Below are positions 899 to 43,016 of a stretch of 43,073 nucleotides of DNA, in pieces (positions within the stretch are counted from its first letter, which is position 1; every line of letters begins with the position of its first letter). The notes under the pieces were generated by a model. That model saw only the letters and a list, made by a program, of their open reading frames with translations, had not been told where the DNA came from and did no database searches. Location: IMG/VR virus record IMGVR_UViG_3300047469_000037, positions 1-43,073 of that record; one strand, given 5' to 3'. Source of the stretch: a virus. Made by a program: the position numbers and the translations under genes.

Positions 899-1924
899 TT
901 ATATGTAGCGTCTAATGAACTTTATTTTTTTTGCCAAGAAGATGATTGCAAATGATATCAAGGCAATCGATATCTGCCAGATTAAGCAAGCAAAGAAAGG
1001 GGTGATTTTCTCTGAAAGGGAGATATAGTAATCAGTAGTCTTTATCATGACCATGTCAGAAATAAGATAAACTCCAAATACACATCCTGACAGTGAGCTA
1101 ATTAAATCTCCTCGCAATTGTATTTTATTACTGGATGACAAGAATTTAAAAACACAGAAAAACGAAAGGCTTGCTATTGAAACAGTCAATGACCCGAGGT
1201 AACTCCAGTATAGAGAATAATTATAACCTTTATTAAATTCAATATATGTAAATAAAGTTGACATCATTACTGATAAAACCAGTGCTATTAATAACAACCT
1301 GAATACATATCTATCTATTGTGATATATTTATTTATATAGTACCCAGCAAAAAGGAATCCTACCGGGTAGCAGTATATTGTAAAATTAGTTCTATCATAA
1401 AGGCTAATCTTGAACAGATGACCGATAAGTGACATAACCCCTGCAACTCCGAGAGCCAACAAAATCAGCACCTCAACATCTCTTCTGCTCATGGCTGATG
1501 TCATTCGTTGAAGGAACGGCATTACAGCAACAATACCTATGTACAGGTACATGTACCAAAGAGCATTGCTTGTTGGTTTTTCTATTATGTATCTTATGGT
1601 CGACTGCAAGTCTGAGAAGCTGATGAAGTGCAAATCACCAGCCTGATAATAATAAAAAGAGAAGGCGCAAAGCACAATAAATGCGCGCCAAAATCTTTTC
1701 AAGTGCTTACCGTAAGGCTCGTCCCTACCCAGTAGCAATGCGCCCGTTGCCATGATGAATATTGGGACAGCAATTCTTGATAGGTTAAAATAGGAAAGTG
1801 ATGAGAACCATGCAAAGGATGGCTGCAATGAAAGGAATATTCTGCTATTCGTGTGATTAACGATCACAAAAAATATTGATACAACCTTTGCTAGATCTAA
1901 ATACAACACCCTATTGTTTAACAT
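899..1924 (-). CDS. Acyltransferase-3 family membrane protein (O-acetylase-like)
   Basis: The roughly 341-residue protein is built of about ten hydrophobic segments. It carries the acyltransferase-3 signature: an early transmembrane helix ending in VIVNHT, with the family's conserved His, then SRIAVPIFIMATGALLLGR. Such integral membrane enzymes move acetyl groups onto surface sugars such as O-antigen, and phage copies change host serotype. The gene is much richer in A+T than the tail genes beside it and has its own promoter, so it is probably a late-acquired moron expressed in the lysogen. ATG at 1924 is chosen over GTG at 1936 or 1930; none has a strong ribosome-binding site. The sugar substrate cannot be told from sequence. 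Confidence 0.85.
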   Translation of the reverse strand: MLNNRVLYLDLAKVVSIFFVIVNHTNSRIFLSLQPSFAWFSSLSYFNLSRIAVPIFIMATGALLLGRDEPYGKHLKRFWRAFIVLCAFSFYYYQAGDLHFISFSDLQSTIRYIIEKPTSNALWYMYLYIGIVAVMPFLQRMTSAMSRRDVEVLILLALGVAGVMSLIGHLFKISLYDRTNFTIYCYPVGFLFAGYYINKYITIDRYVFRLLLIALVLSVMMSTLFTYIEFNKGYNYSLYWSYLGSLTVSIASLSFFCVFKFLSSSNKIQLRGDLISSLSGCVFGVYLISDMVMIKTTDYYISLSEKITPFFACLIWQISIALISFAIIFLAKKIKFIRRYI

Positions 1925-1955
1925 AAACACTTTCACAGTTAAATATTATTTACTG

Positions 1956-4070: not shown

Positions 4071-5263
4071 GACGTCACCGTGATGGTGATGTTCGAGGTT
4101 GTGCATGAAGCGGATTCATTGAATGCAATGTCGATATTTGACGCAGCAACCGTACCGGATGACTTGCCAATCTGAAGGTTGGTAATGTCGTAATACCGGC
4201 TGGCCCCACCGCTTACAACGCCGAGGTTAGCCGGTGAGTAAATCCGGCTTAGCAGAACATCATCTCCAATGGTCAGTGAGTTGATATAGGCAGCGATGGC
4301 CGCCTTGATGTCCTCTCCAACCTGCGTTGTGTATCCAGCGAAGGCCTTGATAGTTATTGCCACATAAACTGGCACGTTGGTTGAGCGAGAGAAATTGATA
4401 GTGTGTGGATTGCCGTATGTGTCGCTGACGACAATTGCCGTTGAGCCATAGGTGGAAACGCCCTGGCCTTTTTTGCCGCGAATTGTTTGCGCAATAACAT
4501 CTGCGTCACCACCATCCACAATCGCAGCAATGGAGTGAGCCGGCAGGCCGTTGCTATCGACTGATCCAGTATCGTTCTCGTAAAGCTTGTGGCGCGTCAC
4601 GCCAGTAACGTTAGCCAGTGCACCATCAACCGCATCGAACGGTGTCAGGGATGGCAATGCCACGCTCTGTGTCTGCCTCAAGCGAAGCTGAGCATCGGTC
4701 TCTGCCGCACTGCCAACTGTGGCCGCAGTGGCATTTGTCACTGCCGTCCATCCGCGTGTTGGCGTGTTGATCTGGTTAACTGATCCGATGACCGCAGCGA
4801 CCGGGCCAGATGTGGCACATGTTGCGGTTACAGTGATGCCAGCCAGAGGTATGGTCACACTGGCGGGAAGATTCCAGATCACGTTGTTCTGGTCCTTCAC
4901 TGAGCCATTGGTGACTGTAACCACTGTTGACGCGCTCAGCGTCACATCTACCGTGGAATTCGTCGCACCTTTGCGCGCTATGCCATTAATTTTCACATTG
5001 CGGGTCAGCGCATCGGTCATACCTGAAGAAGGTGAAAACGAGTTATAGCAGGCTATGGCCGTGTTATTAGCATCGTGGATTGCCAGAGATACCAGTGCGA
5101 CCATCTGACCATCTTTGCTATCCGGTTCAAGATAAGCATCAGTGCCGTAAATCTGCTGGAAGTAGCTGGTGATGGTGCTGAGGATTGTCTGGTAATCGGG
5201 CGCACTGATCCCCTGGGCGGTTATCGTTGCCGATAACCCCAGCGTATCGAGGTTCAAAGCCAT
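4067..5263 (-). CDS. Baseplate J-like wedge protein
   Basis: The 398-residue protein shows the baseplate J/gp47 pattern: an N-terminal helix region (YQTILSTITSYFQQIYGTDAYLEPDSKDGQMV), a beta-rich middle, and LTPFDAVDGALANVTGVTRHKLYEN. In contractile phages this protein forms the wedge dimer that couples baseplate opening to sheath contraction. It sits between the gp25-like and DUF2612 genes, the usual gp25-J-I order. Length is normal for the family. Confidence 0.92.
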   Translation of the reverse strand: MALNLDTLGLSATITAQGISAPDYQTILSTITSYFQQIYGTDAYLEPDSKDGQMVALVSLAIHDANNTAIACYNSFSPSSGMTDALTRNVKINGIARKGATNSTVDVTLSASTVVTVTNGSVKDQNNVIWNLPASVTIPLAGITVTATCATSGPVAAVIGSVNQINTPTRGWTAVTNATAATVGSAAETDAQLRLRQTQSVALPSLTPFDAVDGALANVTGVTRHKLYENDTGSVDSNGLPAHSIAAIVDGGDADVIAQTIRGKKGQGVSTYGSTAIVVSDTYGNPHTINFSRSTNVPVYVAITIKAFAGYTTQVGEDIKAAIAAYINSLTIGDDVLLSRIYSPANLGVVSGGASRYYDITNLQIGKSSGTVAASNIDIAFNESASCTTSNITITVTS

Positions 5264-5617
5264 TTATGCCTCGCTTGTGACGGTCGTCGTTCCGTAAATG
5301 GTGTCGATGGTCGCCGTGAAAATTACCCGGCGTGATGAGGTATTGAGGTTTGAATCGAAGGCAGTGATCGAGTTCACTCCCTGCGTTTGCAGGATGTATT
5401 GCCTGATGGCTAGGTTGTAGACTTCTGGCTTCTGCTTACCCAGCACAGCCTCGCGCCACTGCATGCCCTTGGTCAGGTCGAGGAACCATTGCTTGTACCA
5501 AAGCTCAAAGCGAGTTTTGACGGCCTGCGCCACACACTCCGGAGAGTTAATTAGCCAGGTGTTATCACCCTGACCAAAGGTGTAATCACCATCCGAGTCT
5601 TCGCGTCTGTATCGCAT
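5264..5617 (-). CDS. Baseplate wedge protein, gp25-like
   Basis: The 117-residue protein (MRYRREDSDGDYTFGQGDN...) matches the size and position of gp25/gpW-type or DUF2634-type baseplate proteins, with a central ECVAQAVKTRFELWYKQWFLDLTKGMQW helix and a C-terminal beta segment. T4 gp25 nucleates sheath polymerisation on the baseplate. Its ATG overlaps the spike stop (TGATG) and the J gene begins at the next base after its stop. Confidence 0.82.
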   Translation of the reverse strand: MRYRREDSDGDYTFGQGDNTWLINSPECVAQAVKTRFELWYKQWFLDLTKGMQWREAVLGKQKPEVYNLAIRQYILQTQGVNSITAFDSNLNTSSRRVIFTATIDTIYGTTTVTSEA

Positions 5618-6369
5618 CAGTTCACCTTGCCTGAGTTGCCAGAGCCAGTCTGCACGCCGTTATGGGTATGCTGGTCGCTGATGTCCTTACCGTTGGACGT
5701 AAGCGTGCCGAAGAACTGAATCGCGCCCGTTATTTTCGCTGCCACACCTGTCGCCAGGCTGCCGGTCATTCCGCCCAGCCAGGTAAGCATTCCTGTGATG
5801 GTCACTGCATTGCTGAACTTCGCCATCGGGGTAGTTACGTTCATTCCACCCGGCGCCACGATGTTCACCTGTTTACTGTTCGGGTCCAGCTCAATATAAG
5901 CAGCCCCGTCATCAGTCCGCATCTGCAGAGTAGTGGTGCTGATGTTGCTGATTTTCTCTGCCTGAGACTGTGGGCCGACAAATGCGAATGCATCGGAAAG
6001 GTCATGCTGGCGCGGGTCTACTGGCTCCTGCACGCCGCCGTTCTGCCACCAGAAATCGATACACCGATCGCTGAATACCACCAGGCACTCATCGCCCTCT
6101 TTGATAGGGAATGTGATCGTGCAGCCACCTCCGCGCGGAAATACCACCGGGACATCCATCAGGAGCGGCATGTTGGCTGATGTGTAGTTTCCGTCATCAT
6201 CAGGCACTGCTCCTTTAATGGCAGGCTGAACAGTGCAGGTTACGGCGATCGGGTCAAAGGACTGGATGATGCCGGGCATCGACACGCGCATCATGGAGAA
6301 GATTGATTTGGCTAAAGCGTCGAATGCCTGCTGCTGACCGCCAGCCTGCGCTTGTTGGGAAACTGGCAT
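5617..6369 (-). CDS. Gp138-type membrane-puncturing spike
   Basis: The 250-residue protein has an N-terminal OB-like domain (VTCTVQPAIKGAV...VVFPRGGGCTITFPIKEGDECLVVFSDRCIDFWW), a beta-helix-like middle, and a C-terminal HTHNGVQTGSG. The H-x-H at about residues 234-236 is the metal-binding apex of spikes such as phi92 gp138, where three chains hold an iron ion. The protein would cap the tail tube and pierce the outer membrane. GGAG lies 5 bases before the ATG. A terminator lies 13 bases upstream of the ATG, an odd position inside a late operon. Confidence 0.9.
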   Translation of the reverse strand: MPVSQQAQAGGQQQAFDALAKSIFSMMRVSMPGIIQSFDPIAVTCTVQPAIKGAVPDDDGNYTSANMPLLMDVPVVFPRGGGCTITFPIKEGDECLVVFSDRCIDFWWQNGGVQEPVDPRQHDLSDAFAFVGPQSQAEKISNISTTTLQMRTDDGAAYIELDPNSKQVNIVAPGGMNVTTPMAKFSNAVTITGMLTWLGGMTGSLATGVAAKITGAIQFFGTLTSNGKDISDQHTHNGVQTGSGNSGKVN

Positions 6370-6381
6370 ATTTGCTCCAAT

Positions 6382-6403
6382 AAAAAACCCGCCGAAGCGG
6401 GTT
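6382..6403 (-). terminator. Intrinsic terminator after the secreted-protein pair
   Basis: On the minus strand AACCCGC and GCGGGTT pair over 7 bp around a TTCG loop and run into six T residues. This is a strong rho-independent terminator within the tail operon, ending the two inserted exported-protein genes. Late transcription must pass it, presumably under Q antitermination. Confidence 0.85.
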
Positions 6404-6425
6404 CATAATGTTAATTGATTTACTG

Positions 6426-6797
6426 TTAAAGATTTTTTGTGGGAGAGCATTTTTTTATTATCGCGTCTCCCCTTGGTCTATTGTCAGCATCTAATAACTG
6501 CACAACTTGTTTAATGCCCTTTCCATCTTCTGGGAAAATTGTTGTGTAGTGATTGTGCATTCCACCATTCGCTCCCCACACATCGAAAGTTATGACTATC
6601 GAGTCACCCAAATCCCCATAAGGAAATTCGTCAACTTTGACATTTTCTGTCAACTCGTCGTTTATTATCACTGCGTGCTCAGTGGTAGATGCATTCTCAT
6701 AAATTATGAAATTATTTTTCTCGCAAGTGAAATGTACAGGCGATGCCGCAATGGCCGAAAGTGAGAACAAATAAATTAAAATTGCACATAGTTTCAT
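6426..6797 (-). CDS. Small secreted protein, unknown function (second of pair)
   Basis: The 123-residue product starts with a classical signal peptide (MKLCAILIYLFSLSAIAAS, cleavage probably after AIA). The mature part has two cysteines, FTCEKNN near the front and IKKCSP near the end, which could form one disulfide in the periplasm. The gene is AT-rich, starts 3 bases after its neighbour and ends before a strong terminator. I do not recognise a family. Possible roles are superinfection exclusion or lysogenic conversion, but this is context only. Confidence 0.7.
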   Translation of the reverse strand: MKLCAILIYLFSLSAIAASPVHFTCEKNNFIIYENASTTEHAVIINDELTENVKVDEFPYGDLGDSIVITFDVWGANGGMHNHYTTIFPEDGKGIKQVVQLLDADNRPRGDAIIKKCSPTKNL

Positions 6798-6800
6798 TTG

Positions 6801-7157
6801 CTAATTAACCTTCACGCAGTCATAGGTGCCAAACAGTCTGGGCTGATCCATGTTGCTGCGAATTGCTTCGACATTCAGTATCGCCTTCCCCTTAAGCTTA
6901 ATGAAGTCCATACCATAGAATCCAGGATAGTCATTGCGTGGAACCATCCATTGATACGATACGTTCTTATAATCATCCTGCTCTGCGAGAAACCTAAATT
7001 TTTGGCTTACAGGACGAATATCATTGATGTGCATAAATCCATCATTGCTTGAAGACAGCGTGAATGGTCCGCACTGCATCAATGGCTTTGCCTGATTGTC
7101 AGCAAAAACTGAGGATGAAAATATAAAAACTGAAAGTATTAGGACAGCACCCTTCAT
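6801..7157 (-). CDS. Small secreted protein, unknown function (first of pair)
   Basis: The 118-residue product has a signal peptide (MKGAVLILSVFIFSSSVFA) and a mature domain with two cysteines, LMQCGPF near the front and TYDCVKVN at the end. This matches the disulfide layout of the next gene, though the sequences otherwise differ. It starts 2 bases after the hub gene stop, so it is probably read with the late genes unless a promoter lies inside the hub gene. No family recognised. Confidence 0.7.
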   Translation of the reverse strand: MKGAVLILSVFIFSSSVFADNQAKPLMQCGPFTLSSSNDGFMHINDIRPVSQKFRFLAEQDDYKNVSYQWMVPRNDYPGFYGMDFIKLKGKAILNVEAIRSNMDQPRLFGTYDCVKVN

Positions 7158-7159
7158 AA

Positions 7160-8224
7160 TTATCCAGCACTCCTATTCAATGTGCTTGCCGACTGCAAAT
7201 CCTTAGCCCCACGCGCGCCACACATCAAATCCATGTACCACGCCTGCCCTCTTGTGTCGCCATTATAGCTTATGGATTGCACGATATACACGCCATCGGT
7301 CGCAATACTTGCGGGCTGTTGCAGTGTTCCACTCACGGTCAGATTGCCATTACTGTCTGTTTCCGTTGCGCGCCCGGGCAACGCCTGAACCTCACTTGAA
7401 GATAGCGATGACCGGTACACTGAAGCCTGATCCAACTCAATCAGGCCATTGACACGGATGTTGGGGTTAATCAGGCAGCGAACATTAACGCCTGCACCCA
7501 TCGTCTGCTGAGGCATCCCAACAAGGCCAGTGCCGCTGTTCAGTACGATCGCCTCATGGATGTATTTATCCGTCGGCACCATCTGCGCCTGCCCATCGAC
7601 AAACTGCCAGTTGGCCCCGCACTGATCCGCGACGTTACTCATCACATCCCGGCTCATGCCGTACATTACCCGCCCCCGCGGGAATACAGTGTCCGGCATT
7701 GCCCCGGTGATACCCTGAGTCACCCCGAACGGCGCGAAGCTCTTCATGGTCGCCGCATGCAGATCAGCCACGGTGTAACCGGCAGCGATAGACGTCACCA
7801 TCTGCGCTTTCTCAAACGCCTGGTGACCGTCAATAGCCTGAATCAGGATAAAGGTGTCAGTGGGGTTATCGCGGCCGGTGATCGTAAACCGTATTTCCCC
7901 ATTAAAGATTTCCCCGAAGTTCTGACCGTCAGACTGGCCGACTTTCGAAGCATCAACATTCCGCACCACGCCAACCTGACTCGCATCAACAGCTGTGGCC
8001 AGGCCATCATAGCCAGCGATAATCTTTATCTTCGAAAACTCACTACCGAGAATCCGGCTGTTCGTATCCTTCGACAGGTTATAGATTTTCACCAGAGCCA
8101 CGCGCGGCCACAGGGTATTGGTCCACTCAATATTAAACGTCACCTTGAAGTCAGACAGGCTGATACCCTGACCATTATCATCGGTGAGCAACAGCTCAAA
8201 GTGACGCATCCAGTTCTGGCTCAT
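7160..8224 (-). CDS. Baseplate hub protein (gp27/gpD-like)
   Basis: The 354-residue protein has a beta-rich N-terminal domain (FELLLTDDNGQGISLSDFKVTFNIEWTN), a middle domain with IQAIDGHQAFEKA, and YIVQSISYNGDTRGQAWYMDL near the end, as in phage late-control/hub proteins. It should form the trimer at the tail tube tip beneath the spike. ATG at 8224 has GGAG 5 bases upstream and is preferred to GTG at 8230. In related cassettes the spike follows directly; here two secreted-protein genes intervene. Confidence 0.82.
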   Translation of the reverse strand: MSQNWMRHFELLLTDDNGQGISLSDFKVTFNIEWTNTLWPRVALVKIYNLSKDTNSRILGSEFSKIKIIAGYDGLATAVDASQVGVVRNVDASKVGQSDGQNFGEIFNGEIRFTITGRDNPTDTFILIQAIDGHQAFEKAQMVTSIAAGYTVADLHAATMKSFAPFGVTQGITGAMPDTVFPRGRVMYGMSRDVMSNVADQCGANWQFVDGQAQMVPTDKYIHEAIVLNSGTGLVGMPQQTMGAGVNVRCLINPNIRVNGLIELDQASVYRSSLSSSEVQALPGRATETDSNGNLTVSGTLQQPASIATDGVYIVQSISYNGDTRGQAWYMDLMCGARGAKDLQSASTLNRSAG

Positions 8225-8226
8225 GG

Positions 8227-8532
8227 TCACTCCGTAATAACGTAAAGGTGGCTACCGGAACCCAGATCGGTTTTGGATGGATACTCCTGCGTGTCAGCAT
8301 CACACAGGCATAACAGGGAGAAGCCAAGGCCGAGGTAGGCAAACTGGTAAAGCAGGTCAATTCCTGTCACCAGGGGGATGCCAGCAATGATATCCGCCCC
8401 GCCACTATCCTGCAGGTCCACCACCCAGCCAGCCTCATCACGCCATACCATACAGATTTTATACGTGACGTTGCTGACCAGAATGTTGAATTGCTGATTA
8501 TCCGGTGACAACGGTATTTCCGTAATATTCAT
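8227..8532 (-). CDS. Baseplate plug protein (DUF6983-like)
   Basis: The 101-residue protein (ITEIPLSPDNQQFNILVSNVTYKICMVWRDEAGWVVDL...) has the short all-beta pattern of phage baseplate plug proteins, with the recurring W-V-V-D-L and D-L-L-Y-Q-F elements. It lies between the Dit-like and hub genes, its usual place. Its ATG overlaps the stop of the Dit-like gene (ATGA) and its own stop overlaps the GTG ahead of the hub start. Confidence 0.8.
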   Translation of the reverse strand: MNITEIPLSPDNQQFNILVSNVTYKICMVWRDEAGWVVDLQDSGGADIIAGIPLVTGIDLLYQFAYLGLGFSLLCLCDADTQEYPSKTDLGSGSHLYVITE

Positions 8533-9107
8533 GGAGCGATCCCAATTGAAGAAGCCAGGGTATAAAGGGCAGAGTTATTGACGGTTTTAACCGACTTGGT
8601 GCCGGTGTTCTGAACGGCTGATGTGCTGGCACCGGTTGTCATATCTGACTTATCAGCAACTGACACGCTCTGTGTTTTAGAGATAATCACCTGTCTCATA
8701 ACAAGGGAGGCCATCAGCACGTTTTCAGAAGTCCTGTCGGTTGTTACATCAATGACGCGGATGAGCATGTTGCTGTAAATTCGCTTACCGGTCACCACAT
8801 CGAACGGCACGCGGCTTTCCTGCAAATCCAGCAACTGCTGATAGGTTTCCTTTGGGCTCAACCCCAGCCCAACGCCGAATGATGTTGTGTCCAGCAGGTC
8901 CAGCAGCGAACCTCCGCCCGCAAAGCCAACTTCCATCACCAGCTCAGAGGGTCGCTTAAAAGCGTGATCGGCTATCGGCGCTTTATCCTCTGTAGGGTGT
9001 TCAGTGATTTCCAGCGTGTCGCTGTGTTTCTCTGAAATCACCACGTCCGGAATAATCAGGCCTATTTTCCTGCTCTGCTGAGAAAACAGCGTAGAAATGA
9101 TATCCAT
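8529..9107 (-). CDS. Dit-like baseplate/tail protein
   Basis: The 192-residue protein contains IGLIIPDVVISEKHSDTLEITEHPTEDKAPIADHAFKRPSELVMEVGF, a pattern I associate with the N-terminal domain of Dit-like tail proteins in this myovirus type. It would form a ring at the distal end of the tube. The C-terminal third is low-complexity Ser/Thr-rich. ATG overlaps the tape measure stop (TGATG). Confidence 0.78.
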   Translation of the reverse strand: MDIISTLFSQQSRKIGLIIPDVVISEKHSDTLEITEHPTEDKAPIADHAFKRPSELVMEVGFAGGGSLLDLLDTTSFGVGLGLSPKETYQQLLDLQESRVPFDVVTGKRIYSNMLIRVIDVTTDRTSENVLMASLVMRQVIISKTQSVSVADKSDMTTGASTSAVQNTGTKSVKTVNNSALYTLASSIGIAP

Positions 9108-11020
9108 CAGCGCGGCCCTGTTGCGAGTGATTGAGTCAGTCGGGAGTTAACGCCAGTCTGGCGGTCGGCGACTGCGCCACCGGCTGCTGCCGGGTCGGAA
9201 ACACCATGAATGTGAATATTGGTTTCCTGATTCACCACAGCACCTGCAGCCTGCCCAGCCACCGGGCTATTCCAGTTGGAGAAGCCTTCCTTTCTCGCCA
9301 TAGACTGCATCAGCGAAGTCATGGTCTGAGGGTTATTCAGATTCAGAGCGGCGTCAGGAGAAACACCCATCCATTTAGAGATGTCGCCAATATATTTCCC
9401 GGTATCATTCTCACTTGAAGGAGCCCAGGTCGACACGATATCTGTGATGGTCTTCAGCGCCCGACCAGTAGTTTTACCGGTGAAGTAGCGCATTAGCTGG
9501 TTGCGCATAGCAGACCAACCCTCCATCGCACTACCAAAGGACCGGAACCCACTGCGGCCGACTGGCCGAATGTTGCCAGGGTTGTTGTTGCGATCGGGAA
9601 GGTTACCCCCACCCATGATCGACTGCCCAACGCTGCGAGGGTCAAAGCCAGTTTTGCTCTTAATCCACTCCGCTGCGCTGTTGGCGCTTGATGTCACGCC
9701 GGGTAATGCATCTGGCTGATTGCCGCCCTGGTTCAACAGTTGTTTAGCCAGGCTGGCTGCATCCGACCATCTGCCGTCATCAATGGCTTTGATCAGCTGG
9801 CCTATGGTGTCCAGCATCTTGCTCAATTCACCGAACTGCTTCTTCAGGCTGTCGAACTCAAACTTAATCGACCACACCTTGGGATCAATGCCGAACAGCT
9901 CCAGGATTTCGTCTTTAAGACGCTTAACACCGGTCCACAACTTATCGATGCCATTCAGTGCAGAATCAATCTCTGGCTTCCACTTGCCCCAGTCAATAAG
10001 GGATTTTCCGCCTTCTTTCCACGTTTTGTAGTCGTCATACAGACCGAGTATCGCCACGCCAAGAGTGAGGATGATTCCGATAGGAGATGTCAGGAAAGCA
10101 CTGTTCAGCAACTTCCAGGCGAGGATGAGCGCGCCAAAGGTTTCAATGAGTTGCTGAGTGCCTTTATCCAGACCACTCCACCATTCCCGGATGTCTCCAG
10201 CCGCCTGAATGAGGCGATAGATAACCCGGCCAATCACATCAGCCAGCGCCAGCAGCCCGCGAATGCCGCGAGTGATCGTCTGTTCTATTTTTGGGAAGTT
10301 GTCGAGGATTTGCTTTCGCAGTTTATCCAGCGACCCGGCCAGACCGTCAGCCAGGTTTGAACCGATTTTGTCACGCGCCATGCCCGCCATCTGGCCGAAA
10401 GAGCGCAGTGACGTCATGAACTTGTTGGAGCTTACTGCGGCGGCGTCAGCGTTATAGCCGATCGCCTTCGCCATCTGCGAATACTGCGCGCTGAAATTAC
10501 CCATCCCCCTGCGCATTGCCATGAGGGTGTTTTCATCTATACCCAACATCTGGGCATATTGATTCGCACGGTAATACGGCATGCCGCTGAGCTTCTGGCC
10601 CACGCCTGTGAAGACGGAAGCCATATCCCTCATGTTTCCCTTGACGTCACGCGTTTGCACGCCCAGACGATTCAGGAAGCCTTCAGCGCCTGGGTTATTG
10701 CGCATGAAGCGTGATAGGCTTTCCAGTGACCCCCTGGCAGCTTCAACACTGCCCCCCATTTGAGAGGCGGCGTATCCGATCTGCTGAATGCCCGCAACCG
10801 TTGCGCCGGTGCGCTGAGATGCCCAATACAGGTTATCCAGGCCGCTGGCAATTTTGGCAGTGAAGGCCACAACTGACAGGGCAGCAGCCTCAACGGCCAC
10901 GCCCATTTTCACAGCCTGCAATGTTGTGCCGGCCAGGACTGATTCGAACTTACGGGAGCCAGCTTCATCAACCTGAAAGCCGAGGCTTACCAGAAAATCC
11001 TTGATAGTCTCAGCATTCAT
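9107..11020 (-). CDS. Tail tape measure protein with murein-hydrolase-like end
   Basis: This 637-residue protein is the longest in the virion cassette and follows the chaperone frame, as tape measures do. It has alanine/glycine-rich helical N-terminal half, a hydrophobic stretch (LLNSAFLTSPIGIILTLGVAILGLY), and from about residue 475 a globular end with RNNNPGNIRPVG and SFGSAMEGWSAM. That motif occurs in phage lytic-transglycosylase-like tail domains that open a hole in peptidoglycan during injection. ATG at 11020 overlaps the stop of the preceding -1 frame and is preferred to GTG at 11035. Confidence 0.88.
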   Translation of the reverse strand: MNAETIKDFLVSLGFQVDEAGSRKFESVLAGTTLQAVKMGVAVEAAALSVVAFTAKIASGLDNLYWASQRTGATVAGIQQIGYAASQMGGSVEAARGSLESLSRFMRNNPGAEGFLNRLGVQTRDVKGNMRDMASVFTGVGQKLSGMPYYRANQYAQMLGIDENTLMAMRRGMGNFSAQYSQMAKAIGYNADAAAVSSNKFMTSLRSFGQMAGMARDKIGSNLADGLAGSLDKLRKQILDNFPKIEQTITRGIRGLLALADVIGRVIYRLIQAAGDIREWWSGLDKGTQQLIETFGALILAWKLLNSAFLTSPIGIILTLGVAILGLYDDYKTWKEGGKSLIDWGKWKPEIDSALNGIDKLWTGVKRLKDEILELFGIDPKVWSIKFEFDSLKKQFGELSKMLDTIGQLIKAIDDGRWSDAASLAKQLLNQGGNQPDALPGVTSSANSAAEWIKSKTGFDPRSVGQSIMGGGNLPDRNNNPGNIRPVGRSGFRSFGSAMEGWSAMRNQLMRYFTGKTTGRALKTITDIVSTWAPSSENDTGKYIGDISKWMGVSPDAALNLNNPQTMTSLMQSMARKEGFSNWNSPVAGQAAGAVVNQETNIHIHGVSDPAAAGGAVADRQTGVNSRLTQSLATGPR

Positions 11021-11163
11021 TGATCCTGTCTCCACTTCTCAATTCGGTAATCGTTGTCGGCCTTGAGGTCCAGCCAGTCGTTCATACGGGCAATGTCAGC
11101 CAGGTCGACGGAGCCATCTTTAAGCGCTGAATACCCGATGTACCCGGCGTCAACCGGGCGCAT
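11017..11163 (-). CDS. Small ORF / -1 frame extension of tail chaperone (DUF6889-like)
   Basis: The frame reads MRPVDAGYIGYSALKDGSVD... and recalls short DUF6889 proteins placed between chaperone and tape measure. It can be made in two ways. A ribosome shifting -1 at 11253-11244 would fuse it to the chaperone, because this frame stays open from there (product about 213 residues). Alternatively ATG at 11163 has GAGGA 7 bases upstream, giving a separate 48-residue protein. Its TGA overlaps the tape measure ATG (ATGA). The dual tail-chaperone system of lambda (gpG/gpGT) is the known parallel. Confidence 0.72.
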   Translation of the reverse strand: MRPVDAGYIGYSALKDGSVDLADIARMNDWLDLKADNDYRIEKWRQDQ

Positions 11164-30382: not shown

Positions 30383-31090
30383 TTAAAAAGGGATGGGATC
30401 TTCTGCTGAAAGAGGTTGAGGGCCATAGATGCCCGCAGAAATGAGGGATGCTTCTAACTCTTCCTGCTCTTTCTCATGCTTACGACGCCAAGAGGATTCC
30501 GCATCTTCAACGGCATATGCTTTATCGTCATGAAAAACTATCGACATTCGATTGCTGTTGAGTTTTTGCTGTACTAACTCAGCTCCAAGCCTGATAAGCC
30601 TTTCCGCAATAGCTAATTTGTCACCGAAAACGCTAATGCCTATGTCATCGAACAATTCAGGAAGGCTAAGATTTGTCAGGCTTTCAAAACTAATTACGTC
30701 GTAGTCCATCGCCAGATACTCGACAGGGGTTCCCACCTTGGCTTCACAATGCTGTTCGCATAAAGACGCCAAATCATCCGCGTTATCCTGGAAAAACTCT
30801 CTGGAATCGTTTATGCGAACGTCCTGAAGATCTTCATGAATTAGTCGCTCTGAATTTGCTGGGTTGTCGCAGTGAAAGGCCGCTTCAATCTTGAATGGAA
30901 AAGGTACGCCTGTAGCTGATGACAATTCTTTAGCCCTAACCTCAGGGCTTGTGGTAGTCATTCCAATTTTATAGATGCCGGGCATGTACTCATTGCTGAG
31001 CATATAAACCCACCCAGCCAAGCGAAAATCCTTAGGCATTGGCATTTCTTCAAGCACGCCAGGTTGCCTTTCAATGGCATTTAAGTGCAT
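30383..31090 (-). CDS. T5orf172/MUG113 (GIY-YIG superfamily) protein
   Basis: The 235-residue protein has at about residues 25-100 GWVYMLSNEYMPGIYKIGMTTTSPEVRAKELSSATGVPFPFKIE...SERLIHEDL, a T5orf172/MUG113 domain related to GIY-YIG nucleases: V-Y-x-L, Y-K-I-G, an Arg, and a late Glu in NSERLIHE. The C-terminal half is helical and charged. AGGAG lies 5 bases before ATG at 31090. It is inserted between CII and O. It could be a nuclease acting in replication, exclusion or homing; I see no proof of any. Confidence 0.75.
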   Translation of the reverse strand: MHLNAIERQPGVLEEMPMPKDFRLAGWVYMLSNEYMPGIYKIGMTTTSPEVRAKELSSATGVPFPFKIEAAFHCDNPANSERLIHEDLQDVRINDSREFFQDNADDLASLCEQHCEAKVGTPVEYLAMDYDVISFESLTNLSLPELFDDIGISVFGDKLAIAERLIRLGAELVQQKLNSNRMSIVFHDDKAYAVEDAESSWRRKHEKEQEELEASLISAGIYGPQPLSAEDPIPF

Positions 31091-31124
31091 AATTACTCCT
31101 GTGAATTGATCCAGTCTTTTCGCA

Positions 31125-31463
31125 TCAGGCCGCAAAAGAGTTCCCGCTCTCTTGCGGCTTTTCTTTTGTCATTTCCAGCTGCAGCCGTGAATATTCCAGC
31201 TGTATCCAGATCAGGTGCCGGTAATGTTCCAGCGGCATTTTCCTTTCTCCAGACATCACAAAATCCTCTACACCGCAGGCGGCGAGAGTTTCCATAATTT
31301 CCGGGTATTTTTCGGTTCTTCTGAGGATGGTCGAATCAGCTACTTCAAGCAGTCTGGCAACCACTGACTGACGGGTGTTTGATAATGCCTGGTGAGCAGT
31401 GGCCAGAAGGTGGCGACCGATAAACGCAATGCTTCCTGATTTGCGTGATGTTGCGTGTTCCAT
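31125..31463 (-). CDS. cII: CII-like transcription activator
   Basis: The 112-residue protein has an HTH region (ARLLEVADSTILRRTEKYPEIMETLAACGVED) and a helical end (MPLEHYRHLIWIQLEYSRLQLEMTKEKP) like CII proteins. It would promote lysogeny by activating PRE and other promoters. A TTGC-N6-TTGC target overlaps its own 5' end, as in lambda. It follows Cro and nutR in the rightward early operon. Confidence 0.82.
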   Translation of the reverse strand: MEHATSRKSGSIAFIGRHLLATAHQALSNTRQSVVARLLEVADSTILRRTEKYPEIMETLAACGVEDFVMSGERKMPLEHYRHLIWIQLEYSRLQLEMTKEKPQESGNSFAA

Positions 31464-31873: not shown

Positions 31874-31903
31874 TTAGTGTTTATTATTCACCAGGAGAGG
31901 GCT

Positions 31904-32596
31904 ATGAGCCTCGCAGAAAGAGTTAGAACTAGGCGTGAGGCGCTGGGGTTAACCCAGACAGAATTAGCTGATAAGGTTGGAATCAAGCAGCAGTCTATTG
32001 CTGATATAGAGAAGGGTCAGACAAAGAACCCTCGTAAACTTTTCGAGCTGGCTACAGCTCTACAGTGCTCCGCGCAATGGCTTAAAACTGGAGTTCAGGA
32101 ATCCAACGCAGACGCGATGGAAGGCATCTCAATGTGGGATGACGAAGAGCCTAACGAAAGTGATGATGACGTATATCTGCCGTTCTTTAAGGAAGCACAG
32201 CTCGCTGCAGGTGATGGAAGAGTGGTTGAACTAGATTGCGAAGGCCGTAAGTTGAAGTTTTCCCGCCACAGCCTCAGGAAGCTCGGCGTTAAGCCTGAGG
32301 ATGCTGCGTGCATGACAGTTTGGGGAAATAGCATGGATCCGGTGCTGCCTGATGGCGCCACCGTCGCTATTGATACCAGCGTGGAAGATATTAAGGATGG
32401 CGAGATTTACGCCATAGATCATGAAGGCATGGCTCGCGTCAAAATGCTCTATCGCCAGCCAGGCGGAGGGATCAGGCTCAGATCGTTTAACACAGATGAG
32501 TATCCTGATGAGTACTATCAGGGTGAGGATGCCAACAAAATTCGCCTCGTTGGGTTCGTGTTTTGGTACGCAGTCACCCGCCACAGGCACAGATAA
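31904..32596 (+). CDS. cI: CI-like prophage repressor (S24)
   Basis: The 230-residue protein has an N-terminal HTH (about residues 5-60) and a C-terminal S24 domain. Cleavage site Ala102-Gly103 (QLAAGDGR), catalytic Ser143 (GNSMDPVLPDG) and Lys180 (ARVKML) are all present, so RecA-stimulated self-cleavage and SOS induction are expected. ATG at 31904 has GGAG 6 bases upstream. It keeps the prophage silent by binding the ACAG-N6-CTGT operators. Confidence 0.93.
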   Translation: MSLAERVRTRREALGLTQTELADKVGIKQQSIADIEKGQTKNPRKLFELATALQCSAQWLKTGVQESNADAMEGISMWDDEEPNESDDDVYLPFFKEAQLAAGDGRVVELDCEGRKLKFSRHSLRKLGVKPEDAACMTVWGNSMDPVLPDGATVAIDTSVEDIKDGEIYAIDHEGMARVKMLYRQPGGGIRLRSFNTDEYPDEYYQGEDANKIRLVGFVFWYAVTRHRHR

Positions 32597-41443: not shown

Positions 41444-41701
41444 ATGGAAAATGTAATTCAACTGATGCCAAGCAAATGGGTATCGGAGTCTGTTCTCATG
41501 CAGATTACTGGCCTGCGTCCGGGAACCATTAAGCGAGCCAGAGAGAAGGCGTGGCTTCAGGGGCGTGAATATCTTCTGTTCTCCCCGGAAGGAGACCCGA
41601 AGCCCAACAGCGAAGCGATGTATAACAGGGAAGCTATCGACCAGTGGATTGCAGGTCAGGCAAAGAGACAGCCTGGTGCGGTGGAGCGTAAAAAAGCTTA
41701 A
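41444..41701 (+). CDS. xis: Excisionase (DUF1233-like)
   Basis: The 85-residue basic protein (MENVIQLMPSKWVSESVLMQITGLRPGTIKRAREKAWLQGREYLLFSPEGDPKPNSEAMYNREAIDQWI) has the winged-helix pattern of DUF1233 excisionases and stands directly before integrase. It would bend attachment-site DNA and favour excision. GAGG lies 6 bases before the ATG. Confidence 0.88.
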   Translation: MENVIQLMPSKWVSESVLMQITGLRPGTIKRAREKAWLQGREYLLFSPEGDPKPNSEAMYNREAIDQWIAGQAKRQPGAVERKKA

Positions 41702-41732
41702 CCTGATCGCCCTTTCACACAGGAGATGCAGT

Positions 41733-43016
41733 ATGACAAAAACAATATATCCAAAGGGCGTGGAAAACCATGGAGGGTTCCTGCGCATCCACTTTCAGTA
41801 TCAGGGTGTCAGAGTAAGGGAGGCGCTTGGTATACCTGACACCGCCAAAAACAGGAAGGTGGCTGGAGAGATGCGGGCTAACGTGGTTTATGAAGTTAAA
41901 ACGGGGGCCTTCGTTTACCAGCGGACGTTCCCGACCTCAGTACACCTGTCGAAGTTTGGTGATACGCGTGAGGAGCTGACGGTCAAACAGATGGCTGAGC
42001 GATGGCTGGCGGTTAAGGAGACGGAGATTAGCCGCAACACTCTGGCAAGTTACAAAACGCGCCTGACAACATGCCTGGGTATTTTAGGGGAGAGTAAGTT
42101 CATTCGGGGGGTTAAAACTGAAGATATTCAGAAAATGAGGCTGATGCTCTTGAAGGGAAGTTATGTCTTCGGGAGAAATCGCAACATGACCGGCAGCGGC
42201 CGATCGGTGGCCTATGTGAACACCTGCATGTCCGATATTTATTCTCTCTTTAAATTCGCTCATGAAAACGGGTACGCAGACAGAAATATCGTTTCCTCTC
42301 TGTCGCCGCTGAAGAAGGATAAGCCGAAGCCAGACCCGCTTACCCGGGATGAGTTCCATCGCTTCTCAGCCTCCTGCAACTCGAGGCAAATACGTAATCT
42401 GTGGTCACTGGCTGTTTATACCGGCCTGCGCCATGGCGAGCTGTGCGCGTTAGCATGGGAGGACATTGATTTGCAGGCCGGCTTAGTCACCGTCAGAAGA
42501 AACCTGACCGTGCTGGGCGACTTTACTCCGCCAAAAACCAACGCAGGTGAGAGGAAGGTTTATCTCATTCGGGCAGCAGCAGAAATCCTTCGCGATCAGA
42601 TGGAGCTGACAAGAATGCATCCGGCACGAGAGGTAACGATACTCTCGCGAGAATATGGCAGATCTGAACAGGAAGAGCTGACCTTTGTTTTCAACCCAAA
42701 GGTGAACGCCATCAACTTCAAGAGTGACAGCTATTACACGGTGTCATCACTCCCGCAAACATGGAGAGCGGCAGTAAAAAAGGCGGGCATCAAATACAGG
42801 AAACCATATCAGTCCAGGCACACGTATGCATGCTGGTCACTTTCCGCAGGTGCGAACCCCAACTTTATCGCCAGTCAGATGGGCCATGCTAATGCGCAAA
42901 TGGTTTACCAGGTGTACGGCTCATGGATGAGCGAAAATGACGAAGCACAAATGAGCCTGCTTAACGAAAAGCTCAATGATTTTGTCCCATCACTGTCCCA
43001 CAGCAAAGCCGTCTAG
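41733..43016 (+). CDS. int: Tyrosine integrase with DUF3596-type arm domain
   Basis: The 427-residue protein has an N-terminal arm-binding domain (about residues 1-65), a SAM-like core (about 80-190) and a catalytic domain. Catalytic residues seen are Arg233 (TGLRHGE), Lys268, Arg362 (SRHTYA), His385 (MGH) and the nucleophile Tyr395 (YQVYG). The box II His position holds Tyr359 instead. ATG at 41733 follows AGGAG by 7 bases; the longer reading covers excisionase. The last codons contain an arm-site pair, and the attachment core lies 43 bp on. Confidence 0.95.
   Translation: MTKTIYPKGVENHGGFLRIHFQYQGVRVREALGIPDTAKNRKVAGEMRANVVYEVKTGAFVYQRTFPTSVHLSKFGDTREELTVKQMAERWLAVKETEISRNTLASYKTRLTTCLGILGESKFIRGVKTEDIQKMRLMLLKGSYVFGRNRNMTGSGRSVAYVNTCMSDIYSLFKFAHENGYADRNIVSSLSPLKKDKPKPDPLTRDEFHRFSASCNSRQIRNLWSLAVYTGLRHGELCALAWEDIDLQAGLVTVRRNLTVLGDFTPPKTNAGERKVYLIRAAAEILRDQMELTRMHPAREVTILSREYGRSEQEELTFVFNPKVNAINFKSDSYYTVSSLPQTWRAAVKKAGIKYRKPYQSRHTYACWSLSAGANPNFIASQMGHANAQMVYQVYGSWMSENDEAQMSLLNEKLNDFVPSLSHSKAV
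42983..43000 (+). promoter_or_regulatory. Paired arm-type integrase sites, right side
   Basis: Two TGTCCCA copies at 42983 and 42994 repeat the pair at 133-150 with the same 11-bp period, within TTTGTCCCATnnnTGTCCCA. They fall inside the last codons of int. Confidence 0.5.

Follow-up and report, generated by a model that had tools for sequence, protein, structure and literature searches.

The window, i.e. the whole 43,073-nucleotide stretch of viral DNA that was analysed, carries a series of tail-tip genes on its minus strand. It also encodes an S24/HTH repressor (31877-32596) and a tyrosine integrase (41565-43016), therefore the phage is temperate. Between the baseplate hub and the baseplate spike lie two small genes, orfA and orfB, and a terminator. 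The features are listed below in their order on the minus strand; beyond the spike follow a gp25-like wedge gene and then baseplate J.

9107-11035, minus strand: tape measure, first in the tail-tip gene order
8529-9107, minus strand: Dit-like gene, after the tape measure
8227-8532, minus strand: plug, between the Dit-like gene and the hub
7160-8230, minus strand: baseplate hub, upstream border of the slot (Pfam E217_GP41, 1.9e-6; PHROG 196, 3.2e-81)
6801-7157, minus strand: OrfA, predicted to be exported, near-constant anchor gene (PHROG 3443)
7101-7157, minus strand: predicted signal peptide of OrfA, residues ~1-19, from the sequence and a hydrophobic segment in homologues
7071-7073, minus strand: codon of OrfA C29, invariant cysteine on the first strand of the model
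6816-6818, minus strand: codon of OrfA C114, invariant cysteine on the last strand
6426-6797, minus strand: OrfB, predicted to be exported, exchangeable cargo of the window phage
6747-6797, minus strand: predicted signal peptide of OrfB, residues ~1-17, from the sequence
6723-6725, minus strand: codon of OrfB C25, invariant cysteine
6447-6449, minus strand: codon of OrfB C117, invariant cysteine
6385-6404, minus strand: intrinsic terminator (stem-loop and U-tract), backbone element before the spike
5617-6369, minus strand: baseplate spike, downstream border of the slot (Pfam xxxxx_N, 2.4e-44)

The GC content of orfA (42.0%) and orfB (38.4%) is low compared with the hub (54.1%), the spike (56.0%), the neighbouring tail genes (50-56%) and the window as a whole (51.5%). 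The spacing is tight, with 2 nt between hub and orfA and 3 nt between orfA and orfB, and there is an SD-like sequence at each junction. A preliminary description of this DNA had reported these reading frames with their strand and order, an AT-rich gene pair with signal peptides and one cysteine near each end of the mature proteins, and a terminator after OrfB. Our analysis of the open reading frames agrees on all of these points, and the terminator was recovered at 6404-6385 with a folding energy of -13.6 kcal/mol (z -3.6).

OrfA and OrfB and their relatives

The preliminary description recognised no family for either protein. This holds for OrfB (123 aa), which matched no family in Pfam or PHROG. 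OrfA (118 aa), on the other hand, is a full-length member of PHROG 3443 (E 1.1e-33; residues 11-118 on profile positions 7-114 of 115), for which PHROGs lists no function. Both cysteines are invariant, in 61 homologues of OrfA and in six OrfBs, and a signal-peptide-like N-terminus is found in 60 of 60 non-redundant OrfAs. Neither protein matched any defence family, and a comparison with the sequences of solved structures returned nothing meaningful. OrfB was also considered as a paralogue of OrfA, which was rejected with a profile comparison probability of 0.3%.

A structure search had been proposed for both proteins, and it returned weak matches only. In the AF2 models (mean pLDDT 87.8 for OrfA and 80.4 for OrfB) the cysteine pair sits on the first and last strands, thus we infer that both are probably periplasmic beta-barrels closed by a disulfide. 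Among the matches listed, no PDB fold matched OrfA with a query TM above about 0.45, and its viral fold match, a weak one, is a lipoprotein of Serratia phage Scapp (E 0.06, TM 0.49). The OrfB model weakly resembles the avidin/lipocalin barrel class (E 0.12, TM about 0.6), a resemblance that supports no claim about a ligand or a function.

Relatives of OrfA are encoded in 389 IMG/VR stretches according to a scan with an alignment-derived query, while the same scan with the single OrfA protein returned no matches. A further 26 loci come from sequenced genomes, nearly all of them Enterobacterales. A contig titled Chryseobacterium sp. 18061 has an enterobacterial-type OrfA/hub/spike locus despite its Bacteroidota label, and the record of Elizabethkingia phage EKP1 also matches this region; contamination or mislabelling is possible. 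To make selection independent of OrfA, 80 loci were gathered by the hub. OrfA is present in 67 of these, and another five stop short of the slot or inside it. The other eight encode, at the OrfA position, a lipoprotein of ~240-380 aa with no detected similarity to OrfA. OrfA is a backbone gene of an enterobacterial temperate myophage lineage, located directly after the hub, and not an insert. Five outgroups have hubs and spikes of these families (Providencia PSTCR3, Bordetella IFTN9, Acinetobacter Ab105-1phi, Iodobacter PLPE and Salmonella ZCSE2), and in each the two genes touch and OrfA is absent. The earlier remark that hub and spike are normally adjacent is hence correct for these outgroups, but not for the window phage's own lineage.

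The OrfA position also hosts fusions and replacements. In eight loci (L154, L158, L160, L165, L166, L168, L187 and L193; about 5069-5959) OrfA forms the C-terminal domain (residues ~197-295) of a protein of 292-296 aa that directly follows the hub. Six of the eight fusions have a lipobox, and L154 and L158 have glycine in place of the lipobox cysteine. A related N-terminal module is joined to the alternative C-terminal domain in L183, and in the frameshifted gene of L143 it precedes the OrfA domain. Judged from these sequences, the common N-terminal modules, the exchangeable C-terminal domains and the mutual replacement argue that OrfA and the lipoprotein domain may do equivalent jobs in the cell envelope. 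Elsewhere, Hafnia phage yong1 has a different signal-peptide protein at this position, and Burkholderia phages Magia and BgManors32 encode a signal-peptide protein in antisense orientation between hub and spike (L215:4646-5017; L218:3493-3951).

A variable slot between OrfA and the spike

Overlapping queries make counts over all loci redundant, therefore 88 non-redundant loci were used. A gap of more than 150 bp separates orfA from the spike in 77 of 83 loci. Such gaps are rare at the other junctions: tape measure-Dit (0/88), Dit-plug (0/88), plug-hub (1/88), hub-orfA (3/83, including a split or frameshifted gene), spike-gp25 (3/87) and gp25-J (0/74). The slot ranges from near zero to 2.2 kb in length. 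Its contents differ in 110 of 201 pairs of loci whose upstream flanks are at least 90% identical, and can be unrelated in phages with 97-99% identity in the upstream flank. For example, L092 and L098 are 98.9% identical upstream and 97.5% downstream, yet their slots measure 1381 and 438 bp, while L063 and L065, with upstream flanks in the 97-99% range, are a filled and an empty slot. This combination of fixed borders and variable, unrelated contents is what is expected of a hotspot.

The conserved order is thus hub, OrfA, exchangeable cargo (OrfB in the window), terminator and spike. With a cutoff of 100 aa, the 88 loci contain about 38 cargo clusters, most of them unnamed. The cargo is solely antisense in 14 of 82 filled non-redundant slots, and some of the small or antisense reading frames counted as cargo are possibly spurious. 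Exported cargo families on the same strand tend to lie nearest the anchor gene (one-sided p 0.008, with the family medians taken by hand), a placement in line with their being co-expressed with OrfA. Relatives of OrfB are a minor cargo family of nine close members and one distant member (L196), and all that were mapped occupy the slot beside orfA. The hub itself has a homologue in 396 of 5,426 complete Escherichia coli genomes; in the slots sampled from these, either an OrfA-sized gene is accompanied by cargo that is DUF4282 or uncharacterised, or the place of OrfA is taken by a ~370-aa protein.

A comparable terminator precedes the spike in 156 of 172 filled slots and in nine of 15 empty slots, compared with 0 of 187 control windows at the hub/orfA junction. 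Its presence in empty slots makes it a backbone element, and not part of an OrfB insert. The locus was initially described as two inserted genes closed by a terminator; from the comparison of loci OrfB is indeed variable, but OrfA and the terminator belong to the backbone.

With a conserved terminator before the spike, a transcript over orfA and the cargo can end ahead of the spike, and would do so unless the late operon is antiterminated. Late operons of lambdoid phages are antiterminated, and by analogy the late operon here probably reads through. No promoter-like consensus site was found upstream of orfA by a simple sigma-70 scan. The preliminary description had suggested mapping a promoter inside 7160-7400; the scan showed no consensus site in the 3′ end of the hub. 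Conservation at fourfold sites is mildly raised over the last ~100 hub codons (0.42-0.57 versus about 0.3), which is suggestive at best of a promoter there.

Cargo of related phages and known systems

The confidently named cargo families are all of defence, toxin-antitoxin or phage-regulatory types, and much of the cargo is without a defence annotation. With PADLOC profiles, a GIY-YIG cargo protein matches PD-Lambda-1 (4.8e-83 over its C-terminal half), which by our own reading of the domain layout is the injection-site nuclease SNIPE of PMC13190303. The first and third genes of a three-gene operon match PD-T4-9 (6.6e-10 and 5.8e-5), since renamed CmdTAC (PMC9519451). Homologues of known anti-phage systems are therefore among the slot contents of relatives. 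Other cargo includes Doc (1.8e-33) and a Phd-like antitoxin, YafO, EACC1-like antisense genes, a P22 antirepressor-like gene, and STAS-like and histidine-kinase-like genes.

The commonest cassette consists of a ~260-aa protein followed by a ~130-aa protein (in 20 and 19 loci), encoded by overlapping genes, e.g. in L144 (5965-7153), L112, L076 and ~16 other loci. None of the libraries searched provided a family name. By eye the two proteins look TPR-like and HEPN-like, and the cassette is a candidate for a new defence or toxin-antitoxin pair.

Two other genes of the window are worth recording here. A minus-strand gene in the replication region (30383-31135) encodes a T5orf172/MUG113 GIY-YIG-type protein (6.5e-16), a domain type that is also found in the PD-Lambda-1-like cargo of the relatives. 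At the end of the record, 899-1936 (minus strand) encodes a membrane acyltransferase (Pfam Acyl_transf_3, 3.5e-23) that looks like a lysogenic-conversion gene of the O-antigen acetylase type.

Defence hotspots have already been described in P2-like phages, P4-like satellites and two other prophage groups (PMC9122126; PMC9519451, which includes a second P2 locus). The slot resembles the P2-like and P4-like hotspots in its temperate phage, its fixed conserved borders and its unrelated cargo in near-identical genomes, rich in anti-phage and uncharacterised genes. It differs in lying between hub and spike within the tail-tip operon, in opening with a near-constant exported protein and in closing with a backbone terminator. 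In phi80, Tai/Ati is an antisense defence gene inside the Q-dependent late operon (PMC11364771); some slots here likewise hold only antisense cargo, but the place and the genes differ. Morons such as HK97 gp15 (cited in PMC13190303), which is proposed for exclusion, likewise add a gene and a terminator among late genes. However, OrfA is a near-constant gene of its lineage, and here the terminator did not arrive with the cargo but persists without it.

The exclusion lipoproteins T5 Llp and Cor are small, exported by the phage-infected cell and closed by an intramolecular disulfide, as predicted for OrfA and OrfB; Llp jams the receptor and its gene adjoins that of the receptor-binding protein (PMC9586334). 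In contrast to these, OrfA and OrfB of the window have no lipobox, a motif that occurs at other loci in OrfA homologues fused to lipoprotein modules, and neither protein has a Pfam or PHROG match to such a family. T4 Spackle is likewise a small periplasmic protein directed against superinfecting phages, a candidate role for OrfA and OrfB, but it is an early protein that inhibits the spike lysozyme (PMC7677548), whereas the hub and spike here have no Pfam lysozyme domain and the OrfA subtype does not vary with the tape-measure hydrolase type. The position rule, the lipoprotein fusions and the non-homologous replacement are described here for PHROG 3443. Neither the hub-spike slot nor any function of OrfA is described in the literature that we searched, which largely excludes subscription journals, and given this scope such an absence is no proof of novelty.

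Possible roles of OrfA and OrfB

We propose, with a probability of about 0.5, that the region is a defence and lysogenic-conversion cargo slot in the tail-tip operon of a temperate myophage, and that OrfA and OrfB are exclusion proteins. Periplasmic superinfection exclusion is probably the likeliest role for both. The two proteins would be exported, fold in the periplasm as small disulfide-closed beta-barrels and obstruct the entry of competing or sister phages, following a logic like that of T5 Llp, Cor and T4 Spackle, with OrfA as the resident exclusion factor and OrfB as an accessory one. A lysogen or an infected cell would thereby be protected from other phages. Exclusion was among the roles first suggested for these proteins and it gains indirect support, as homologues of tested anti-phage systems occupy the slots of relatives and exported proteins recur there. 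The defence genes next door in relatives amount to guilt by location. A toxin-like function was also suggested, and we found no evidence of it for OrfA or OrfB.

A further-reaching proposal is more tentative, and we hold it with rather less than even confidence: the hub-spike junction may be an undescribed defence hotspot, OrfA the founder of a new superinfection-exclusion family and an anchor interchangeable with a lipoprotein, and OrfB and some 30 other unnamed cargo families anti-phage.

Exported morons often alter host traits, and the proteins could instead be lysogenic-conversion factors that aid the bacterium in envelope stress, colonisation or competition, with the slot as a general moron site into which defence genes also find their way. 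The cargo that lacks a defence annotation is in keeping with this, as is the report that Brunovirus prophages carry virulence genes preferentially in Salmonella (PMC11305592). We consider it rather unlikely, because the named cargo is of the types given above and because OrfA is tied to the hub by position and by distance (r 0.64, a correlation that may reflect the linkage itself) across many host genera, and a tie of this kind is easier to reconcile with a phage-related role than with one in the host niche. It is a little harder to favour a late action in the dying cell, where OrfA and OrfB would mask receptors on debris or, ahead of lysis, keep progeny from re-infecting. The genes share the strand of the hub at a spacing of a few nucleotides, the scan found no promoter of their own, and Llp is a precedent for an exported protein that inactivates a receptor (PMC9586334). 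However, the conserved terminator suggests that a transcript over orfA and the cargo can also exist apart from the late operon, and antisense cargo could not be produced from a late transcript, thus the slot is not only late.

Lysozyme inhibition was another early suggestion, and OrfA or OrfB could act like Spackle or MliC as an inhibitor of a peptidoglycan hydrolase, here the lytic domain of the tape measure. The tape measure has a hydrolase-like C-terminal region, SLT-like in many relatives, and Spackle provides the model of a small periplasmic inhibitor of a tail lysozyme (PMC7677548). We nevertheless regard this as improbable. OrfA subtype is not associated with the type of tape-measure hydrolase (34/26 versus 8/12, Fisher p 0.21), which speaks against inhibition of the phage's own tail hydrolase, the distances between OrfAs follow the tape-measure C-terminus (r 0.22) far less than the hub, and there is no MliC/PliC-type match in Pfam (E<=1) or among the PDB folds listed. 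A host or broad-range lysozyme may still be a target. Least probable of all is a virion or baseplate-assembly component. Its fixed position between two baseplate genes and near-universal presence in the lineage would suit OrfA to such a role, but it is absent from the outgroups with the same hub and spike families, can be replaced by lipoproteins or fused behind lipobox signal sequences, and carries both a signal peptide and two invariant cysteines, whereas tails are assembled in the cytoplasm. The SEN34 genome paper makes no mention of virion mass spectrometry.

Within the exclusion reading we prefer receptor jamming, or interference with the periplasmic passage of hub and spike, over hydrolase inhibition, because OrfA does not track the tape-measure hydrolase. 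The prophage defence hotspots known so far have been productive sources of anti-phage systems. This slot occurs in a large prophage group, and its contents offer a concrete screen against phage panels. The slot also ties an exported protein family to tail-tip genes, and such a screen would test whether entry apparatus and exclusion protein stay together.

A separate observation concerns the tape measure (9107-11035, minus strand), whose C-terminal ~200 codons alternate between an SLT-like and an NPGN-motif type in near relatives, independently of the OrfA type.
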